This document shows positions 40,097-52,281 of a DNA stretch of 54,558 nt, one piece after another. The position numbers and the translations under genes were made by a program. The DNA lies in assembly GCA_021846025.1 (NCBI GenBank), contig JAJZDV010000004.1:1-54558 (forward strand), in the 5' to 3' direction. The notes beneath the pieces were generated by a model. The model was not told the origin of the DNA and did no database searches. It saw only the letters and a list, made by a program, of their open reading frames with translations. Within the stretch, counting starts at the first letter, position 1, and each line of letters starts with the position of its first letter. Source of the stretch: Pseudomonadota bacterium (GTDB taxonomy: Bacteria > Pseudomonadota > Gammaproteobacteria > Burkholderiales > Burkholderiaceae_C).

Positions 40097-40843
40097 ATGA
40101 GCAGCAAGACCCCAAGCACCAAGTCGAAGCTCGCAAGGAAACACAGGGCCGCCGCAAGTGACCTTGACCCCCACGGGGAGCGGGCCGGCGAGCCGACGCT
40201 GGGGGCGCTCTCAAGGAAACACAGGGCCGCCGCAAGTGACCTTGACCCCCACGGGGGGCGGGTCGGCGAGCCGACCCTGGGGGCACCCAAAAGCAAAGCC
40301 AAGCCGGAAACCGCGGCCAGCAACACCCGTCTGAAGTTGAACGCCGCGGCCATCGATGCGGCGAGGAGCAGCCTGAGCCAGGGCGCCATGACGCCGCACT
40401 ACGGCCCGTGGAGCCAAGACATCATCCAGTTGCTCAACGACGCGCTCGCCACCGAGCTGGTTTGCGTGCTGCGCTACAGGCGCCACCACTTCACCGCGCA
40501 GGGGTTGGCTTCGCCCAAGATTGCCGAAGAGTTCCTGGTCCATGCCCAGGAAGAACAGGGCCACGCCGACCGCCTGGCCGGGCGCATCGTGCAGTTGGGC
40601 GGCCAGCCCGACTTCTCACCGGATTCGCTCACCGCGCGCAGCCATGCGGCCTACAACGACGCGCTCGACCTCAAGGCCATGATCCGCGCGAATCTCGTGG
40701 CCGAGCGCGTGGCCATCGAAACCTACAGCCAGATCATCACGCTCATCGGCGACAAGGACTCGACCACCAGGCGCCTGGTCGAAGACATCCTGAGCAACGA
40801 GCAAGAGCACGCCGAGGAACTCAAGGACTGGCTGACCGACTGA
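40097..40843 (+). CDS. Bacterioferritin/ferritin-like protein with repeat-containing N-terminal tail
   Basis: DIIQLLNDALATELVCVLRYRRHHFTAQGL...EEFLVHAQEEQGHADRLAGRIVQLGG...NEQEHAEELKDWLTD. Confidence 0.9.
   Translation: MSSKTPSTKSKLARKHRAAASDLDPHGERAGEPTLGALSRKHRAAASDLDPHGGRVGEPTLGAPKSKAKPETAASNTRLKLNAAAIDAARSSLSQGAMTPHYGPWSQDIIQLLNDALATELVCVLRYRRHHFTAQGLASPKIAEEFLVHAQEEQGHADRLAGRIVQLGGQPDFSPDSLTARSHAAYNDALDLKAMIRANLVAERVAIETYSQIITLIGDKDSTTRRLVEDILSNEQEHAEELKDWLTD
40134..40285 (+). repeat. Two tandem 78-bp repeats translated in frame (26 aa: (A/S)RKHRAAASDLDPHG(E/G)R(A/V)GEPTLGA(L/P))
   Basis: CAAGGAAACACAGGGCCGCCGCAAGTGACCTTGACCCCCACGGGG... begins at 40134 and again at 40212; three mismatches in the first ~72 nt. 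Confidence 0.95.
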
Positions 40844-40926
40844 AGCGTGCGATCAGAAAACTGCGCGACGCGTACCCAATCTCTTTGCTTTTTCATTCCC
40901 GCATTTCGACACGATCGAGGTCCATC

Positions 40927-41373
40927 ATGATGCATCGACAAATTTCAGTCACGGCTTCCATTCGGCGCATCAAGCCGTTGCCGCAGACGGCCGACCAACC
41001 CCTCACGACCGAGCAATTGGCGTTTTTCAAGTCCTTGCTGCTGCGTGAACGCGAGGCCTTGTTGCAGTCGGCGCACGAGACCGCCAGCCATCTGCAGGAG
41101 TTCGAGCCGACGCCCGACCCGTCTGACCGCGCCTCGCTGGAAGAGGACCATGCGCTCGAACTGCGGGTGCGTGACCGTGAGCGCAGGCATCTGCACGCCA
41201 TCGACCAGGCGCTGGCGCGGATTCAAGATGGCCGTTATGGCCTGTGCGAGGAGTCGGGCGAACCCATCGGTTTCGCCCGACTGATGGCACGTCCCACCGC
41301 GACACTCTCCCTGGACGAGCAGACCCTGCGCGAATCGACCCGCAACCGCCGTCCCCTGCGCGGCCATGCATGA
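40927..41373 (+). CDS. DksA/TraR-family protein lacking the canonical zinc-finger cysteines
   Basis: DPSDRASLEEDHALELRVRDRERRHLHAIDQALARIQDGRYGLCEESGEPIGFARLMARPTATLSLDEQT. Confidence 0.9.
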   Translation: MMHRQISVTASIRRIKPLPQTADQPLTTEQLAFFKSLLLREREALLQSAHETASHLQEFEPTPDPSDRASLEEDHALELRVRDRERRHLHAIDQALARIQDGRYGLCEESGEPIGFARLMARPTATLSLDEQTLRESTRNRRPLRGHA

Positions 41374-41430
41374 GCCTGCAAGGCCCGTGCACGTCACGCC
41401 AAAGCCGCGCCCAGTCTGGAGCCTTCCATC

Positions 41431-41859
41431 ATGCTCAAACCCCATGCCGTCGTCGCGCGCAAAGCCCTCCTGGCGCTGGCTTTCATCGGCGCCAGCGCGC
41501 CAGGGCTCATGGGTGTGGCCCAAGCCCAGGAGCAGAAGCAGAACCCGGCTGAGCCGCACCCAGCCATCAGCCACCTGTGCGGTGGCGTGGGCGACACAAG
41601 CCTGCGGCAGCTGAAAACCCAGGCCGGGAATTTCAATGCCGGTTTCTGGATGGTGGGCGGACCGGATGGCGCCTATCTGGCCGACGTGCCGATCCAGATC
41701 CAGTCCCACGGTCAGACCGTGGCCAGCTTCACGGCCGGTGGACCGCTGTGCTATGTCGAGTTGCCGGCGGGCACCTACACCGTGACGGGCACGCACCATG
41801 GGCAGGCGCGGAGCATTCCGCTGCATGCCGGCAGCATGAACCAGTACTTGCGCTGGTAG
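41431..41859 (+). CDS. Secreted hypothetical protein
   Basis: Signal peptide ending GVAQAQ; GPLCYVELPAGTYTVTGTHHGQARSIPL (carboxypeptidase-regulatory-like beta motif). Confidence 0.7.
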   Translation: MLKPHAVVARKALLALAFIGASAPGLMGVAQAQEQKQNPAEPHPAISHLCGGVGDTSLRQLKTQAGNFNAGFWMVGGPDGAYLADVPIQIQSHGQTVASFTAGGPLCYVELPAGTYTVTGTHHGQARSIPLHAGSMNQYLRW

Positions 41860-41985
41860 GCCGCGCGCAGGTTGGGGTTCGGCGCGGGTGCGGGCTGATG
41901 CGCAAGCCGGCACGCTCCGGGCTCAGAATTCAACGACGCACAGACTCGACACAGACGCGACACCGGCGCGCAGCGCCCACCCACC

Positions 41986-42432
41986 ATGACCACCAAAATC
42001 CTCATTCCCCTCGACGCCAGCGACACGGCGCAGGCCGCCGCGGCGCATGCCATCGGCCTGGCGCGCGAGCAGGGCGCTGCCGTGCGTTTTCTGGTCGTCA
42101 TCGACTTCAACAGTTTCATGGGTTCCGTCCCCAACATGATCGAGGTGATCAGCAACGATGCCCGGCTGATGCTCGACGGCTGGATGCAACGCGCCACGGA
42201 TGCCGGCCTGCGGGCCAGCACTGCCATTGCCGAGACCAGCCCCGAGGCCACCGACATTGCCGCCGCCATCACGGCCGACGCGCAGGCCTGGGACGCCGAC
42301 CTGATCGTGTTCGGCAGCCATGGGCACAGCGGCCTCCACCACCTGCTGCAGCCCAGCGTGGCGGCTGGCGTGGAGCGCTTGTGCGCCATTCCCGTGCTCA
42401 ACGTGCAACCGGGTGAAGCGCCAGCGGCCTGA
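41986..42432 (+). CDS. Universal stress protein (UspA family)
   Basis: TKILIPLDASDTAQAAAAHAIGLAREQGAAVRFLVVID...ADLIVFGSHGHSGLHHLLQPSVAAGVERLCAIPVLNV. Confidence 0.92.
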   Translation: MTTKILIPLDASDTAQAAAAHAIGLAREQGAAVRFLVVIDFNSFMGSVPNMIEVISNDARLMLDGWMQRATDAGLRASTAIAETSPEATDIAAAITADAQAWDADLIVFGSHGHSGLHHLLQPSVAAGVERLCAIPVLNVQPGEAPAA

Positions 42433-42503
42433 AACGGGTGGCCTGGCCGTCAACGCCCCATTCCCCAACCCGAACACCAACCGCGCGTCGAGCGTGAATC
42501 CCC

Positions 42504-43367
42504 ATGATCCGCATGCGTCTGACCCTGGAGTTGAACTACGAGGTCTTCGAGCCCGGTTGCGACTTCATTTTCACGATCCACGCGGCCCACACCGAGCAGC
42601 AGCATGTGCTGGATGAAGCCCTGACGCTGAGCCAGGACATCCACTTCAAGGTCGAAACCAGCCCCGTTTCCGGCAACCGCGTCATGCGCCTGCGGGCGGC
42701 CGCGGGCCCGTTCCAGGTGCGCTATGGCGCCACGGTGGACCTGCAGCACCATGTGGCCCAACCCGGGCAGATCGAGGAAGTCGCGGTGGCACAGCTACCG
42801 GCGCGCGTGCTGGGCTATATCTACCCCAGTCGTTATTGCCAGTCGGACCGGCTGTACAAGCTGGCGTTACGCGAGTTTGGCCAACTCAAGCCTGGCTACG
42901 GCCGCGTCATGGCGATTCGTGACTGGGTGGAGCAGCACACGACCTTCGTGATGAACACCTCGAACTCGAACACCTCGGCGATCGACACGCTGGTCGCGAC
43001 CGAGGGGGTGTGCCGCGATTTCGCGCATCTGATGATCGCGCTGTGCCGGGCCAGCAATATCCCGGCGCGCTTCACCACCGGCATCGACTACGGCGCCGAC
43101 CCTGGCCTCGGTCCCAGCGACTTCCACGCCTATGTCGAGGTCTACCTGGGCGGGCGCTGGTACATCTTTGACCCTTCGGGCACGGCCATTCCCATGGGTT
43201 TCGTGCGCTTCGGCTCCGGACGTGACGCGGCCGACGTGGCGTTCGCCACCATCTTCGGCCCGGTGCACTCGCGGGCACCCATCATCGCCATCGAAGTCAT
43301 GGCCGGCGCGGACGGCCAGATCATCCTGCCGCACCACAGAACCGATGCGCTTTCAACGGATGATTGA
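42504..43367 (+). CDS. Transglutaminase-like cysteine protease-fold protein
   Basis: ATEGVCRDFAHLMIALCRASNIPARFTTGIDYG...DFHAYVEVYLGGRWYIFDPSG (Cys-His-Asp). Confidence 0.9.
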   Translation: MIRMRLTLELNYEVFEPGCDFIFTIHAAHTEQQHVLDEALTLSQDIHFKVETSPVSGNRVMRLRAAAGPFQVRYGATVDLQHHVAQPGQIEEVAVAQLPARVLGYIYPSRYCQSDRLYKLALREFGQLKPGYGRVMAIRDWVEQHTTFVMNTSNSNTSAIDTLVATEGVCRDFAHLMIALCRASNIPARFTTGIDYGADPGLGPSDFHAYVEVYLGGRWYIFDPSGTAIPMGFVRFGSGRDAADVAFATIFGPVHSRAPIIAIEVMAGADGQIILPHHRTDALSTDD

Positions 43368-43513
43368 CCCGCGGCGCGCCGGCCGGACCTGGCGAGCGGA
43401 CATGCCGCTCACGCGCACCGTCAACCAGTGCCGCCCAGGGCTGATCGGCGCATACCGCGAGGCGAGGCGTCGAGGCGCCGGTGCTTGGCCGGTCATTGCC
43501 ACAGCGGCGTGTG

Positions 43514-43708
43514 CTACGGGTTGCCCTTGGCCGTGTTTTGAACGCTGTTGCCGGCGTTTTGAAGCGCCTGACCAGCCTTCGCCGCGCCCTGGTCGATGGC
43601 CTTGCCGGCCTGCTGCGCCGGCCCCTCGGGCTTCTGGCAGCCGACCAGCGAGGCCGTCACGGCACCGATGGCGAACGCGGTGGCAAGACGTTTGAAGTGT
43701 GGAGTCAT
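43514..43708 (-). CDS. Small lipoprotein (64 aa)
   Basis: MTPHFKRLATAFAIGAVTASLVGCQKPEGPAQQAGKAIDQGAAKAGQALQNAGNSVQNTAKGNP. Confidence 0.7.
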   Translation of the reverse strand: MTPHFKRLATAFAIGAVTASLVGCQKPEGPAQQAGKAIDQGAAKAGQALQNAGNSVQNTAKGNP

Positions 43709-43806
43709 GGGGGTTCCTGGGTATGTTGCGCCGCACCCGTCCCAACACTGCAACACTGCAGCGCTTGGACGGGCGTCTCGCGCAAGAATCTCATCGATTT
43801 GTCGAT

Positions 43807-44022
43807 TTACTTGCCGACTTGGTTGCCGATGATGCCGCCGACGGCCGCGCCACCGACCGTGCCAATGCCGCTGCCGCCTGACAACACGGCGCCACCCACG
43901 GCGCCGACGCCGGCGCCGATGGCCGTGTCCTGATTCCGCCTCGACATGCCGGCGCAGCCTCCAAGGGCGAGCAGCATGGCGGCGACGATGATGCAGGGTA
44001 GGACTCTGTGCTTGGTTCTCAT
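43807..44022 (-). CDS. Glycine-zipper lipoprotein (OsmB-like)
   Basis: Lipobox LALGGCAG; AIGAGVGAVGGAVLSGGSGIGTVGGAAVGGIIGNQVGK. Confidence 0.8.
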   Translation of the reverse strand: MRTKHRVLPCIIVAAMLLALGGCAGMSRRNQDTAIGAGVGAVGGAVLSGGSGIGTVGGAAVGGIIGNQVGK

Positions 44023-44227
44023 GCTGTGACCTCTCGAATCAGGTTGACTTGAAAAGGCGTGGCTGGCGTTGAGGCGCAACCGGCCGACTGAAGCCCATGG
44101 GGGGCGTTGCCTGATGCGGGCATCGATCCATGGCCTATCCCGCGAACGTCCTGCAGGGCTTGTTTCGAGATCGCACGCGGCAGCCGTCGTGCTGCACGGC
44201 AAGACCCGGAGTCTCGATGCCGAAGCC

Positions 44228-44539
44228 TTACTTCACGCTCATGTTGTTTTGCACCGCCTTCACGCCGCTCACATGCCGGGCCAGGTCCACCGCCTTGAGT
44301 TCCTCTTCGCGCGAGCCGACGAATCCGCTCAACTGCACCACGCCCTTGAACGTCACGACCTTGATCTCGAAAAGCTTGAGGTTGGGGTCGGCGAAGATGG
44401 CGGCTTTCACCTTGGCGGTGATCGCGGTGTCGTCGAGATACTGGCCGGTGCTGTCCTGTTTCGGTGTCGCCGCGCAACCCGTGATGCTGGCGACAGACGC
44501 CGCCAGCATGAATGCATACAGAAACTTGTTGAATCGCAT
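44228..44539 (-). CDS. BON domain lipoprotein
   Basis: SITGCAATPKQD...DDTAITAKVKAAIFADPNLKLFEIKVVTFKGVVQLSGFVGSREEELKAVDLARHVSGVKAVQNNM. Confidence 0.9.
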   Translation of the reverse strand: MRFNKFLYAFMLAASVASITGCAATPKQDSTGQYLDDTAITAKVKAAIFADPNLKLFEIKVVTFKGVVQLSGFVGSREEELKAVDLARHVSGVKAVQNNMSVK

Positions 44540-44643
44540 GATGAACTCCTGGTGAACGGGTGAGCGGATGGACGTGGCCCGTCCATGATTCGGTTCTGCC
44601 GGTTCCATGCCTGAATCATCACGACATGGATGCGAATGGATCT

Positions 44644-44802
44644 TTACATCCGGCCCGTCAGAAACAGAATCAGGACGATGATCAAAATGAATCCGAGAAT
44701 TCCGCTTGGAAAATAGCCCCAACTGCGGCTATGGGGCCAACTTGGAAGAACGCCGATCAACATCAAAACGAGAATGATCAGCAGGATCGTGCCCAATGAC
44801 AT
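44644..44802 (-). CDS. DUF3309 small membrane protein
   Basis: MSLGTILLIILVLMLIGVLPSWPHSRSWGYFPSGILGFILIIVLILFLTGRM. Confidence 0.85.
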   Translation of the reverse strand: MSLGTILLIILVLMLIGVLPSWPHSRSWGYFPSGILGFILIIVLILFLTGRM

Positions 44803-44919
44803 GGTGAACTCCTGGTCAGGACCAAGACCCATCGGGACCTGGTCACATCAAGACATGGCGTCAACGCTGTTCGACCTTGCGCATCCTGGAGTCAGGTCGA
44901 CATGGCATCGATCGCCCGC

Positions 44920-45126
44920 TTACTCGAATGTGCGGCTTTTCTGCCAGGTGTCGAGCTGCTTGTCGGCCTCCTCCTTGGTGATTCCGTACGACTCCTGAAT
45001 CTTGCCGGCGAGCTGGTCGCGTTTGCCGGCAATCACATCCAACTGGTCGTCCGTGAGTTTTCCCCACTGCTCCTTGGCCTGGCCCTTGAGCTGCTTCCAG
45101 TTTCCTTCAATACGTGCCCAGTTCAT
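44920..45126 (-). CDS. CsbD family stress protein
   Basis: MNWARIEGNWKQLKGQAKEQWGKLTDDQLDVIAGKRDQLAGKIQESYGITKEEADKQLDTW. Confidence 0.93.
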   Translation of the reverse strand: MNWARIEGNWKQLKGQAKEQWGKLTDDQLDVIAGKRDQLAGKIQESYGITKEEADKQLDTWQKSRTFE

Positions 45127-45293
45127 GCTCGCTCCTTGTCATGGCGGAGCGTGACGCTCCGCGTGAACCCAGCCCGACCGCCGTTGTGCATGGCGGCGCC
45201 CGGTCCGAGCAGGAGCCAAACGTATCGCGTTGCAAGTTTGATGTCTGTGCGTTAGCGCACATGACCGGCCCTGGCGGGCCGTGCTTGGCCTTC

Positions 45294-46544
45294 TCAGGCC
45301 TTGCGGGCACCGTGCGCTGCCGCGCGCAGCGCGAGCACGGCATTGGTGCCGCCGAAGGCGAACGAGTTCGACAGCAGGGTGCGCGCCGCAACGCCCGCGC
45401 GTGCGGCGTTGGGCACATAGTCCAGATCGCACTCCGGGTCCGGGTGCTGCAGGTGCATGGTCGGCAAGGCGGTGCCGTGCTGCAGGGCCAGCAGCGACAA
45501 CACACATTCCACGGCGCCCGCGGCACCGAGCAGGTGGCCATGCATGGCCTTGGTCGCGCTGATGGGAATGTGCGGGGCGCGGGCGCCGAACACCGCCTTG
45601 ATCGCAGCCGTCTCCACCGCGTCGTTGGCCTGCGTGCCGGTGCCGTGCGCGTTGATCATGCCGATGTCCAGCGGGTCGAGCGCGGCCGATTGCAGCGCCG
45701 CGCGCATCGCCGCCGCCTGGCCCGCGACGCTCGGCCGGGTGAGGTGGCCGGCATCGGTACTGAGCCCGTAGCCCAGAATTTCACCCTGTATCGCAGCCCC
45801 CCGGGCGATGGCCTGCTCCCAGGGCTCCAGCACCAGCATGGCCGCGCCTTCGCCCAGCACCATGCCACTGCGGTTTTGCGAGAACGGCTTGCACGAGGCC
45901 GAGGGCTCGGCCGCGTCGATGCTGGCCAGTGTGCGCAGCGCCTCCCAGGCCTTCAGGGAGCCCAAGGCCAGCGGGGCTTCCGCGCCACCGGCCAGGGCCA
46001 GATCCAGGCTGCCGCCGGCGATGCGCAACCAGGCTTCGCCGATGGCCACTGCCGACGAGGCGCAGGCGCTCGAGTACGTCAGGTTGGGGCCGAGCAAGCC
46101 GTACTCCAGGCCGACCCATCCGGCGGGCGCGTTGGGCATGCCCAGCAGCACCGTGTAGGGTTTGATGCGGTCGGACGCCTCGCCGTAAAGCGTCTGGTAA
46201 CCCGCGTCGTTGCTCAGGCACCCGCCCATGCCCGTGCCGACGAAAACACCGGCGCGGTCACGGTTGCAGGCGTCGAGCCCGCCAGCGGCAGCGACAGCCT
46301 GGCGCGCGGCCACCACGGCGAACTGGCTGACGCGGTCGAGCATGCGCAGCTTGGGCGGATCGAAATGCCGCGCGCCATCGAACCCCGGCACCGTGGCGGC
46401 AAGCGGCGCGATCAAGCGATGGGCAAACGGCGCCTCGAGGCGGTGAACGCCGGAGCGCCCGGCATGGGCGTTGGCGTCAACCTCCGCCAGACTCTTGCCC
46501 AGCGGGCACAGCACGCCGATGCCGGTGACCGCGACCCGTCTCAT
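45294..46544 (-). CDS. Beta-ketoacyl-ACP synthase (FabF/type II PKS-like KS)
   Basis: MRRVAVTGIGVLCPLG...TYSSACASSAVAIGEAW (Cys)...NAHGTGTQAND (His)...SATKAMHGHLLGAAGAVE (His). Confidence 0.93.
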   Translation of the reverse strand: MRRVAVTGIGVLCPLGKSLAEVDANAHAGRSGVHRLEAPFAHRLIAPLAATVPGFDGARHFDPPKLRMLDRVSQFAVVAARQAVAAAGGLDACNRDRAGVFVGTGMGGCLSNDAGYQTLYGEASDRIKPYTVLLGMPNAPAGWVGLEYGLLGPNLTYSSACASSAVAIGEAWLRIAGGSLDLALAGGAEAPLALGSLKAWEALRTLASIDAAEPSASCKPFSQNRSGMVLGEGAAMLVLEPWEQAIARGAAIQGEILGYGLSTDAGHLTRPSVAGQAAAMRAALQSAALDPLDIGMINAHGTGTQANDAVETAAIKAVFGARAPHIPISATKAMHGHLLGAAGAVECVLSLLALQHGTALPTMHLQHPDPECDLDYVPNAARAGVAARTLLSNSFAFGGTNAVLALRAAAHGARKA

Positions 46545-46575
46545 GCACACAACCCGCCCAGCAACCACCCGCATC

Positions 46576-46856
46576 CCCACCCAGCGTGACCGGCCCCCAC
46601 CCGCGCACCGGTGGGAACGGCAGCCAGGGGTCGACGGGCCGCTCCCGAGACACCTGGCCCCCCTCGGGGGGCGCCCGCTTGCGGGCGGGTGGGGGCGGTC
46701 GCCAGGAAACGCCGGGCCGATCCCAAGTTTTCTGGCCCCCCTCGGGGGGCGCCCGCTTGCGGGCGGGTGGGGGCGGTCGCCAGGAAACGCCGGGCCGATC
46801 CCAAGTTTTCTGGCCCCCCTCGGGGGGCGCCCGCTTGCGGGCGGGTGGGGGCGGTC
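46576..46856. repeat. Tandem array of 78-bp hairpin repeats: diverged copy, two identical full copies, partial copy
   Basis: CTGGCCCCCCTCGGGGGGCGCCCGCTTGCGGGCGGGTGGGGGCGGTCGCCAGGAAACGCCGGGCCGATCCCAAGTTTT at 46654 and 46732, partial at 46810-46856; diverged unit ~46576-46653. Confidence 0.93.
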
Positions 46857-47145
46857 ATCGCACCGCCTGCACCGCAGGTTCGGTGGGTGTCGCTTCGGGG
46901 TGTCCGCCCGGTTGTTGCGCAAGCAGCGTGTCGATGTAGCGCACCACATCGCCGAGCGAGAGCAGCGGCACCTGCTCGGGTGGGAAGGTGATCCCGAACG
47001 CATCCTCCGCGCTGAAAAACAGTTCGGCGGCGCCGAGCGAATCGAGGCCCAGGCTCTCCAGCGTGGCATCCGGGGTCAGCGCTTGCGGTTCGAGTTTGTA
47101 ATCTTTCACCAGAATGGAACACAGGCGCTCGAAGGTCGTTGTCAT
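46855..47145 (-). CDS. Acyl carrier protein
   Basis: MTTTFERLCSILVKDYKLEPQALTPDATLESLGLDSLGAAELFFSAEDAFGITFPPEQ (phosphopantetheine DSL motif). Confidence 0.92.
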   Translation of the reverse strand: MTTTFERLCSILVKDYKLEPQALTPDATLESLGLDSLGAAELFFSAEDAFGITFPPEQVPLLSLGDVVRYIDTLLAQQPGGHPEATPTEPAVQAVR

Positions 47146-50967: not shown

Positions 50968-52281
50968 ATGCATGCATCCCTGCAGAATCTGATTCGCGAG
51001 GCGACGAGGCTGACCCAGGCCGGCCGTTTGGACGAGGCCACCGCGGCCATTCAGCGGGCGCTGGACGTGATGCGTGCAGACAAGGCCGACGCTGCCAGCG
51101 CCGACCGGCCTGCCGATGGCAGATTTGAACTGCCGGCGCCGGCAGCCGCGGCTCGCGGGGAAACGCACGGCCGCCCGGAGCGTGCTCTTTCCCCCGCAGG
51201 GGCTGCCGCGGTGGCGCAGCAGCTTGGGGATGGTCTCGAAATCGATCGACAGAAGAACATCGAGGATGCGCACGGCGACAGCCAACCCGGCTTCACCGCC
51301 TTGGGGCGCAGGCTGGTGCCGCGCGGCGCTGCCGGAGTCGTTCGGGAGCCAAGCGGCCGGAGCGCCTTCGTCGACGGCGTGTTCGAGCATGCGGGCACGA
51401 CGCGCCGCTACAAGCTCTACATCCCAGCGGGGCACGACGCGCGGGCGCTGCCACTCGTGGTCATGCTGCATGGCTGCAATCAGAGCCCTGAGGATTTCGC
51501 CGCCGGCACGGGCATGAATGCGAGGGCTGGCGAGCAGGGATTCTTCGTGCTCTACCCCGAGCAAGCGCAGGAGGCCAATCCCGCCCGCTGCTGGAACTGG
51601 TTTCAGCAGGACCACCAGTTGCGCGGCCTGGGAGAGCCGGCCTTGATCGCCGCGATGGCGCAGGCGATGGTGCTGCGGCATGGCATGGATGGCCGCCGCG
51701 TTTACATCGCGGGGCTGTCGGCCGGTGGCGCGATGGCGGCCATCGTTGCGGCGGCTTATCCCGACGTTTTCGCGGCGGTCGGGGTGCATTCCGGTCTCGC
51801 TCCCGGCGCGGCAGACAACCTGCCGGACGCCCTCGCGGCCATGCGCGGCGGTGCGGCGGGGCCGCGCCCACAGGGCCAGGGCAAAGGTAAAAGCCCGGTC
51901 CCGATCTCGGGCCCGCTCATCAGGCCGCGGATTCTGGTGCCGACCATCGTGTTCCACGGCGATCAGGACCGCACGGTTCATCCGCGCAATGGCGAGCAGG
52001 TCATCGCCGCAGCCATGGAACGCCTCGGCACCCTGCCGGCCACGTCCGCACAGCAGCTCCGCACGGAACGAGGTGTTTCTGCGGGCGGGCGAAGCTACAC
52101 CCGCAGCCACCACGGGGCACAAGGCCAGGCCATGAGCGAGCACTGGACCTTGCATGGTGCGGGGCATGCCTGGTCCGGCGGGCGCGCCAAGGGTTCGTAC
52201 ACCGACCCCAGCGGACCCGATGCCACCGGCGAGATGCTGCGCTTCTTTTTTGCCCAGCCGTATGGCCCTGCCGGGCATTGA
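50968..52281 (+). CDS. PHB depolymerase family esterase
   Basis: RRYKLYIPAGHDARALPLVVMLHGCNQSPEDFAAGTGMN...VYIAGLSAGGAMAAIVAAAYPDVFAAVGVHSGL. Confidence 0.9.
   Translation: MHASLQNLIREATRLTQAGRLDEATAAIQRALDVMRADKADAASADRPADGRFELPAPAAAARGETHGRPERALSPAGAAAVAQQLGDGLEIDRQKNIEDAHGDSQPGFTALGRRLVPRGAAGVVREPSGRSAFVDGVFEHAGTTRRYKLYIPAGHDARALPLVVMLHGCNQSPEDFAAGTGMNARAGEQGFFVLYPEQAQEANPARCWNWFQQDHQLRGLGEPALIAAMAQAMVLRHGMDGRRVYIAGLSAGGAMAAIVAAAYPDVFAAVGVHSGLAPGAADNLPDALAAMRGGAAGPRPQGQGKGKSPVPISGPLIRPRILVPTIVFHGDQDRTVHPRNGEQVIAAAMERLGTLPATSAQQLRTERGVSAGGRSYTRSHHGAQGQAMSEHWTLHGAGHAWSGGRAKGSYTDPSGPDATGEMLRFFFAQPYGPAGH

Follow-up and report, generated by a model that had tools for sequence, protein, structure and literature searches.

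The 54,558-nucleotide stretch of DNA analysed here (the window) covers positions 1 to 54,558 of contig JAJZDV010000004.1, from a genome of the genus Thiomonas (2.93 Mb, 203 contigs; G000 below, with other G-numbers denoting the compared genomes). It harbors two arrays of a 78-bp repeat, one within a gene for a ferritin-like protein (array A) and one in the spacer between the genes for an acyl carrier protein (ACP) and a ketosynthase (array B). Both are detected by TRF, at 40129-40284 (2.0 copies, 94% match) and 46654-46856 (2.6 copies, 100%), and the second occupies 46592-46856 once its diverged first unit is counted in. The units of both arrays fit one scaffold on alignment, and a covariance model constructed from nine aligned units of the source genome (R1) finds both arrays together with about 30 further copies in that genome. 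The two arrays thus belong to one family, as the original prediction from this DNA had claimed, and the genome-wide covariance search that it had proposed places this family well beyond the two loci.

The element is 75-84 nt long, is made up of three consecutive hairpins and carries no gene of its own. Matches to R1 extend over 72-81 nt, tandem periods are 78-84, and the GC content per copy is 0.67-0.83 among strong matches. The consensus drawn from relatives is CTCAAGGAAACGCAGGGCCGCCCCAAGTTTCCTTGACCCCCACGGGGGGCGGGTCGGCGAGCCGACCCTGGGGGCGCT. An initial pattern, GGCCCCCNCGGGGGGCG, was one C short and matched nothing even in the window, and Rfam gave no match at the element. The copies found in the window are listed in Table 1 along with their host and flanking genes.

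Table 1. Copies of the element in the window, with host and flanking genes.
Feature	Coordinates	Strand	Basis and remarks
Unit A1	40129-40206	+	TRF; R1 74.8 bits; translated, in frame, as part of the N-terminal extension of the ferritin; G014 orthologue without the 52-residue insert
Unit A2	40207-40284	+	R1 89.3 bits; same frame as A1; 95% identical to A1, above its identity to the orthologous G001 units
Ferritin-like protein (host gene)	40097-40843	+	Pfam PF00210, E 1.4e-25; domain from residue 110
Ketosynthase (flanking gene)	45294-46544	-	Open reading frame (ORF) list; orthologues 76-93% identical
Inverted partial piece of the element 3' end	46593-46615	-	Inverted repeats I13-I15, 78% complementary
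Unit B1, diverged 5' half	46622-46696	+	R1 60.7 bits
Unit B2	46700-46774	+	R1 76.8 bits; TRF 100%
Unit B3	46778-46852	+	R1 76.8 bits; ends at the stop codon of the opposite-strand ACP gene
Acyl carrier protein (flanking gene)	46855-47145	-	Translation, orthologues; stop codon at array B edge
Degenerate single copy	51154-51233	+	Core pattern, alignment; in the N-terminal region of a PHB-depolymerase-type esterase gene, 50968-52281 (Pfam PF10503)

Structure and distribution of the element

The first of the three stems consists of TCAAGGAAAC paired with GTTTCCTTGA around an inner GGG/CCC, the second pairs CCCCC with GGGGG, and the third is a variable hairpin. The original prediction had described one self-complementary central hairpin; the variable hairpin does exist, but it is one stem of three. 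Stem 1 switches pairwise among copies, as TCAAGGAATC/GATTCCTTGA, TCGAGAAAAC/GTTTTCTCGA and TCAAGGAACC/GGTTCCTTGA. All three stems covary, with strong compensatory change of the kind that had been anticipated. With alignments that were fitted to R1, and hence carry some bias in favour of the model, the own-genome set (39 distinct rows) has two-sided changes in 127 cells versus 36.9 in shuffles, and a covariation score of 0.381, compared with 0.152 for shuffles and no more than 0.10 when the partners are slid. In the set from relatives (117 copies, 75 distinct rows), fitted in the same way, the score is 0.243 versus 0.094 and 96.7% of cells are paired. Single units fold no better than their own dinucleotide shuffles at a significant level (z -0.4 to -1.4), and the structural case therefore depends on the covariation.

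The element is found in 25 of the 28 congeneric genomes, with at least 77 matching candidates in each of G005 and G014 and no copy in G021, G006 or G022, the last of which is around 100% complete. Within the family, matches occur in 123 of 401 genomes and in 63 of 141 genera, and in a sample across the order six of 399 genomes match, of which four fall outside the family. Full elements also occur in named records, among them Zoogloea ramigera, Aromatoleum buckelii, Xenophilus azovorans, Piscinibacter caeni, Ideonella, Mitsuaria and Burkholderia. One genus of the family, g206 (G472, G580, G656, G724 and G782, with genomes of 2.7-3.8 Mb), has dense, high-scoring copies, the counts being lower bounds in four of the five genomes.

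Sampled copies in the copy-rich G026 and G005 are mostly intergenic, and many lie 3-35 nt from a gene end; many copies in G014 and G000 are genic, as judged from a home-made coding score with gene calls accepted only where Pfam or an orthologue agreed. The combination of genic and intergenic copies within 7 kb had been put forward as unusual, yet the same mix is found across the source genome and its relatives.

Array B lies between genes, as had been supposed, and starts at the ACP stop codon. The equivalent spacer has no unit in G011, one unit and a fragment (about 1.5 units) in G001 and G014, and three units and a fragment in G000. This variation bears on the idea that the element is a functional cis-acting RNA, such as a terminator or a processing or stability element, that is kept by selection in places such as this spacer. 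The covarying stems and the many intergenic copies close to gene ends agree with such a role, as does an 80-nt Bordetella transcript that overlaps a Beta-proteobacterial Repeat Element (BRE; PMC3110155). The changing number of units in the spacer, the genic copies on both strands and the lack of an Rfam match speak against it, and we regard this explanation of the family as unlikely, although single copies may have a local function.

The inverted piece beside array B and the degenerate copy in the esterase gene had been overlooked originally. Between 45294 and 50469 the window also contains, as read from the ORFs, the ACP and ketosynthase genes with genes resembling those of a FAD-dependent oxidoreductase, a methyltransferase and a type III polyketide synthase, a gene set suggestive of a small pathway cluster of the lipid or resorcinol type.

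Copies within genes

Array A is translated in frame in the ferritin, as had been claimed; the G014 orthologue reads KLKVKAKPETAA where the G000 stretch runs 52 residues longer with both units. The ferritin of G001 also has two units. Overall the ferritin genes share 97.5% identity between G000 and G001, whereas their units are 88% and 94% identical from one genome to the other and 95% and 97% inside each array. As the units are closer within an array than between genomes, the arrays have been homogenised.

In-frame residence extends to a range of unrelated proteins, as revealed by inserts that are present in some orthologues and absent from others. Hosts in the source genome are the urease alpha subunit (UreC), UvrA, a DUF1989 protein, a Methyltransf_28 protein, the N-terminus of a dynamin-like protein, the C-terminus of a DUF2269 protein and a hotdog-like protein with four in-frame units, whose identity was read from its sequence, with no Pfam match. 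The UreC stretch from TWQT to NPA spans 74 residues in G000, 73 in G001 and 64 in G014, as against 46-50 in the other 20 genomes, and the extra residues map between positions 390 and 393 of the Klebsiella urease chain, directly ahead of DNDNF. There are two units in UvrA of G000, one in that of G014 and none in those of G001, G011 and G026. For the dynamin-like protein, G000 and G014 have two units each, G001 has three, and G011 and G022 have none. The DUF1989 gene is 162 nt longer in G000 (L062:5744-5902), retains a 51-nt remnant at that position in G011 (L337) and lacks an insert in G001 and G022.

Further hosts were encountered in G014. Its MetE is hit at two sites, with an antisense unit near the N-terminus and two units in a linker of 83 residues that has only 28 in three relatives. 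The insert-bearing stretch of its acyl-CoA dehydrogenase (ACAD) has 60 residues versus 34, the tail of its carboxylesterase 78 versus 52, and its ChaN contains two units where that of G001 contains one. MdcG of G014 (G014:C3, L377:2432-4711) has 20 tandem 78-bp units in frame, about 1560 bp or about 520 residues, which sit between RPHDLLLVS and LAALAFD, much of the array being made up of near-identical 156-bp dimers. Elsewhere, MdcG has about three decayed units in G000, about two in G001 and none in G011 or G022. The G014 mdcG gene, which belongs to a malonate decarboxylase operon, holds the most extreme intragenic array encountered. A 965-aa ORF that runs over this array was rejected as a gene, being the antisense of the real mdcG. 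Together with the TRF arrays of the window, such differences in unit number between species bear out the proposed tandem amplification.

Frame keeping in these genes is partly tautological, because only intact genes get recognised; the informative evidence on frame is the length of the inserts and the empty orthologues. Arrays wholly within genes have a spacing of 78, 81 or 84 nt, and 79, 82 and 83 nt occur as well where arrays lie between genes or at gene ends, a link between spacing and frame that is qualitative, the odd-spaced arrays having been chosen deliberately. The original prediction had treated freedom from stops in several frames as a special trait of the unit. With 4.48 open frames versus 5.18 in dinucleotide shuffles there is no excess; the openness follows from the GC content, and stop-freeness as an adaptation is ruled out.

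It had also been proposed that the repeat is exapted in frame, that is, that selection acts on the peptide it encodes as a useful module of 26-27 residues. The ACAD and UreC inserts are in frame in three species and MdcG has its 20 tandem units, as such a module might. However, the copies are read from both strands and in several frames, so that the peptides are unrelated to one another and no one peptide is selected; the ACAD inserts have retained their length and lost their sequence, the DUF1989 insert has shrunk to a 51-nt remnant in G011, and most orthologues are without an insert. There is no sign of selection on a peptide that varies, decays and is missing from orthologues. We consider its exaptation exceedingly improbable, and the encoded peptide appears to be functionless.

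Insertion sites and mode of spread

In 39 single copies from the Thiomonas genomes the ends are sharp and shared, with CT/CTCAAGG at the left end and GGGGGC/GCTCA at the right, beyond which the flanks are unrelated; in some subfamilies the end is CCGTCA, TGTCA or GGTCA. The cleanest filled and empty pair is the carboxylesterase of G014 and G011. The filled site reads GAACGCCTC[TCAAGG...GGGGGTGCTC]AAAGGCTATGTG, with the insert ending GTGCTC ahead of AAAGGC, and the empty site reads GAACGTCTCAAAGGCTATGTG, or GAACGTCTCAAAGGC in short form, which gives a gain of 78 nt at CTC|AAAGG. CTC is found on either side of the insert and once when the site is empty. There are no terminal inverted repeats, as seen when the left end, CTCTCAAGGAAACG, is compared with the reverse-complemented right end, TGAGCGCCCCCAGG.

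Spread solely by local tandem duplication, homologous exchange and gene transfer, with no transposition, would account for the tandem variation and the homogenisation, both of which are evident. It would not account for the single, nearly identical copies found at numerous unrelated sites in G026, whose flanks are unrelated past sharp ends, nor for the exact empty site, and we judge it very unlikely. The dispersal is instead suggestive of transposition.

The original prediction had pointed to a RAYT as something to look for, a Y1 tyrosine transposase encoded in the genome that would move the element in the manner of a REP or REPIN. Hairpins that lack inverted repeats and a short, fixed target do resemble Y1/HUH substrates, and one divergent Y1-like ORF is present in each of G000, G001 and G014. 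Y1_Tnp is found in 10 of the 28 genus genomes, but it has no match in the copy-rich G005, G026, G027, G013 and G019 and nine in G022, which is free of the element, and no copy lies within about 1.5 kb of the 22 Y1 loci checked. The element also lacks the GTAG tag, having a CTCA-type end (the CCGTCA ends of a few subfamilies contain CGTC), and has three stems rather than one. Y1 distribution and loci therefore do not track the element, and movement by a RAYT is highly improbable. The IS91-type Y2 transposase, present in 8 of 28 genomes, was rejected too, showing no correlation with the element. By analogy, the hairpins without inverted repeats are reminiscent of single-strand HUH elements, and they may be recognised as single-stranded DNA. 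In G019, lexA, whose gene neighbourhood was considered as a stand-in for a Bordetella BRE locus, is one gene away from a copy.

We think it likely that this small repeat is mobile but non-autonomous, very probably belongs to the BRE kind, inserted in frame in genes, and was then amplified and is decaying. Host or trans-acting machinery would copy it into short targets of the CTC(A) type, so that CTC flanks the inserted copy at either end. Since the net gains seen most often, 78 and 81 nt, are divisible by three, a gene can take up a copy without a frameshift; a copy that is also stop-free and lands in a loop, linker or terminus that tolerates it would survive as 26-27 extra codons. The unit would then multiply or shrink head to tail through slippage or unequal recombination, and the array would be homogenised and later decay while selection on the host gene maintains the frame.

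Several points weigh against this account. No transposase is linked to the element, whose mobility is deduced from patterns only. The flanking CTC-CTC is equally compatible with a 3-bp duplication and a retained target. The filled and empty pairs are interspecific, and some apparent gains could in fact reflect loss, conversion or gene transfer. The DUF1989 insert occupies one site in G000 and G011 and is absent from the nearer G001, a pattern for which a hotspot, loss or gene transfer can be considered. Finally, the BRE assignment is made by description and not by sequence identity.

Relation to known repeats

The BREs (Hot et al. 2011, PMC3110155) are repeats of 75-91 bp with a mean GC content of 69% (64-79%), arranged in head-to-tail tandems with a few nt between units. 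Their copy number varies between strains, with no more than 29 per genome, and they are mostly intergenic, some lying wholly within coding sequences. They were reported from Bordetella (for example B. pertussis 3605317-3605401), Polaromonas, Delftia and others, encompassing Alcaligenaceae, Comamonadaceae and one Rhodocyclaceae genome; Thiomonas was not tabulated, and the paper gave no function, structure, target, empty sites or frame analysis (PMC3110155). The present element agrees in unit length and GC content, in its head-to-tail tandems (0-3 units at orthologous sites and up to 20), in lying within genes now and then, and in its betaproteobacterial spread, which takes in named Comamonadaceae and Rhodocyclales isolates such as Xenophilus, Zoogloea and Aromatoleum. 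Every comparable trait agrees, and on this comparison of descriptions the element is probably of the BRE kind, in keeping with the resemblance to Burkholderiales intergenic repeats noted originally.

Other systems share some of these features. The RPEs of Rickettsia are palindromic repeats of around 150 bp that lie in frame in unrelated protein genes and are tolerated by the host protein (PMC10969869, PMC3733652). The in-frame insertion is found here too, but by description the Thiomonas element is only around 80 nt long, three-stemmed, GC-rich, tandem and, in some species, mostly intergenic, whereas the RPEs belong to an intracellular organism. The REPs tagged with GTAG or CGTC are stem-loops of 20-40 bp, the GTAG type being tied to RAYTs (Di Nocera et al. 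2013, PMC3733652); they interrupt uvrA in Opitutus terrae and Thioalkalivibrio (PMC3733652). They are likewise small, palindromic, often clustered and sometimes genic, with uvrA hit in both cases, and differ from the longer, three-stemmed element with its CTCA-type ends and lack of a RAYT link. As with MITEs, the element is short, non-autonomous, dispersed and geneless, but it has no terminal inverted repeats.

The kind of element is thus already known, and the novelty lies in the scale documented here, in the precise sites and in an intragenic array of 20 units. The analysis supplies a structural model, precise ends, a target for insertion and evidence from empty sites for a repeat fitting one reported in 2011 without a mechanism, and it raises the concrete question of which enzyme moves the element, the usual suspect being absent. 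For annotators, it means that stretches of the RKxRAAxSxxDPxGG type and comparable tandem peptides in proteins of Burkholderiales represent repeat DNA and not domains. More tentatively, and at somewhat less than even odds, this may be an active, selfish and RAYT-independent mobile hairpin repeat of a free-living lineage that time and again writes inserts of 26-27 codons into core enzymes and amplifies them in frame (in MdcG to about 520 residues), which would make the lengths of these enzymes differ between sister species. The inserts described above show that a palindromic repeat has invaded conserved enzymes in frame outside Rickettsia, in a bacterial group that includes cultured members.

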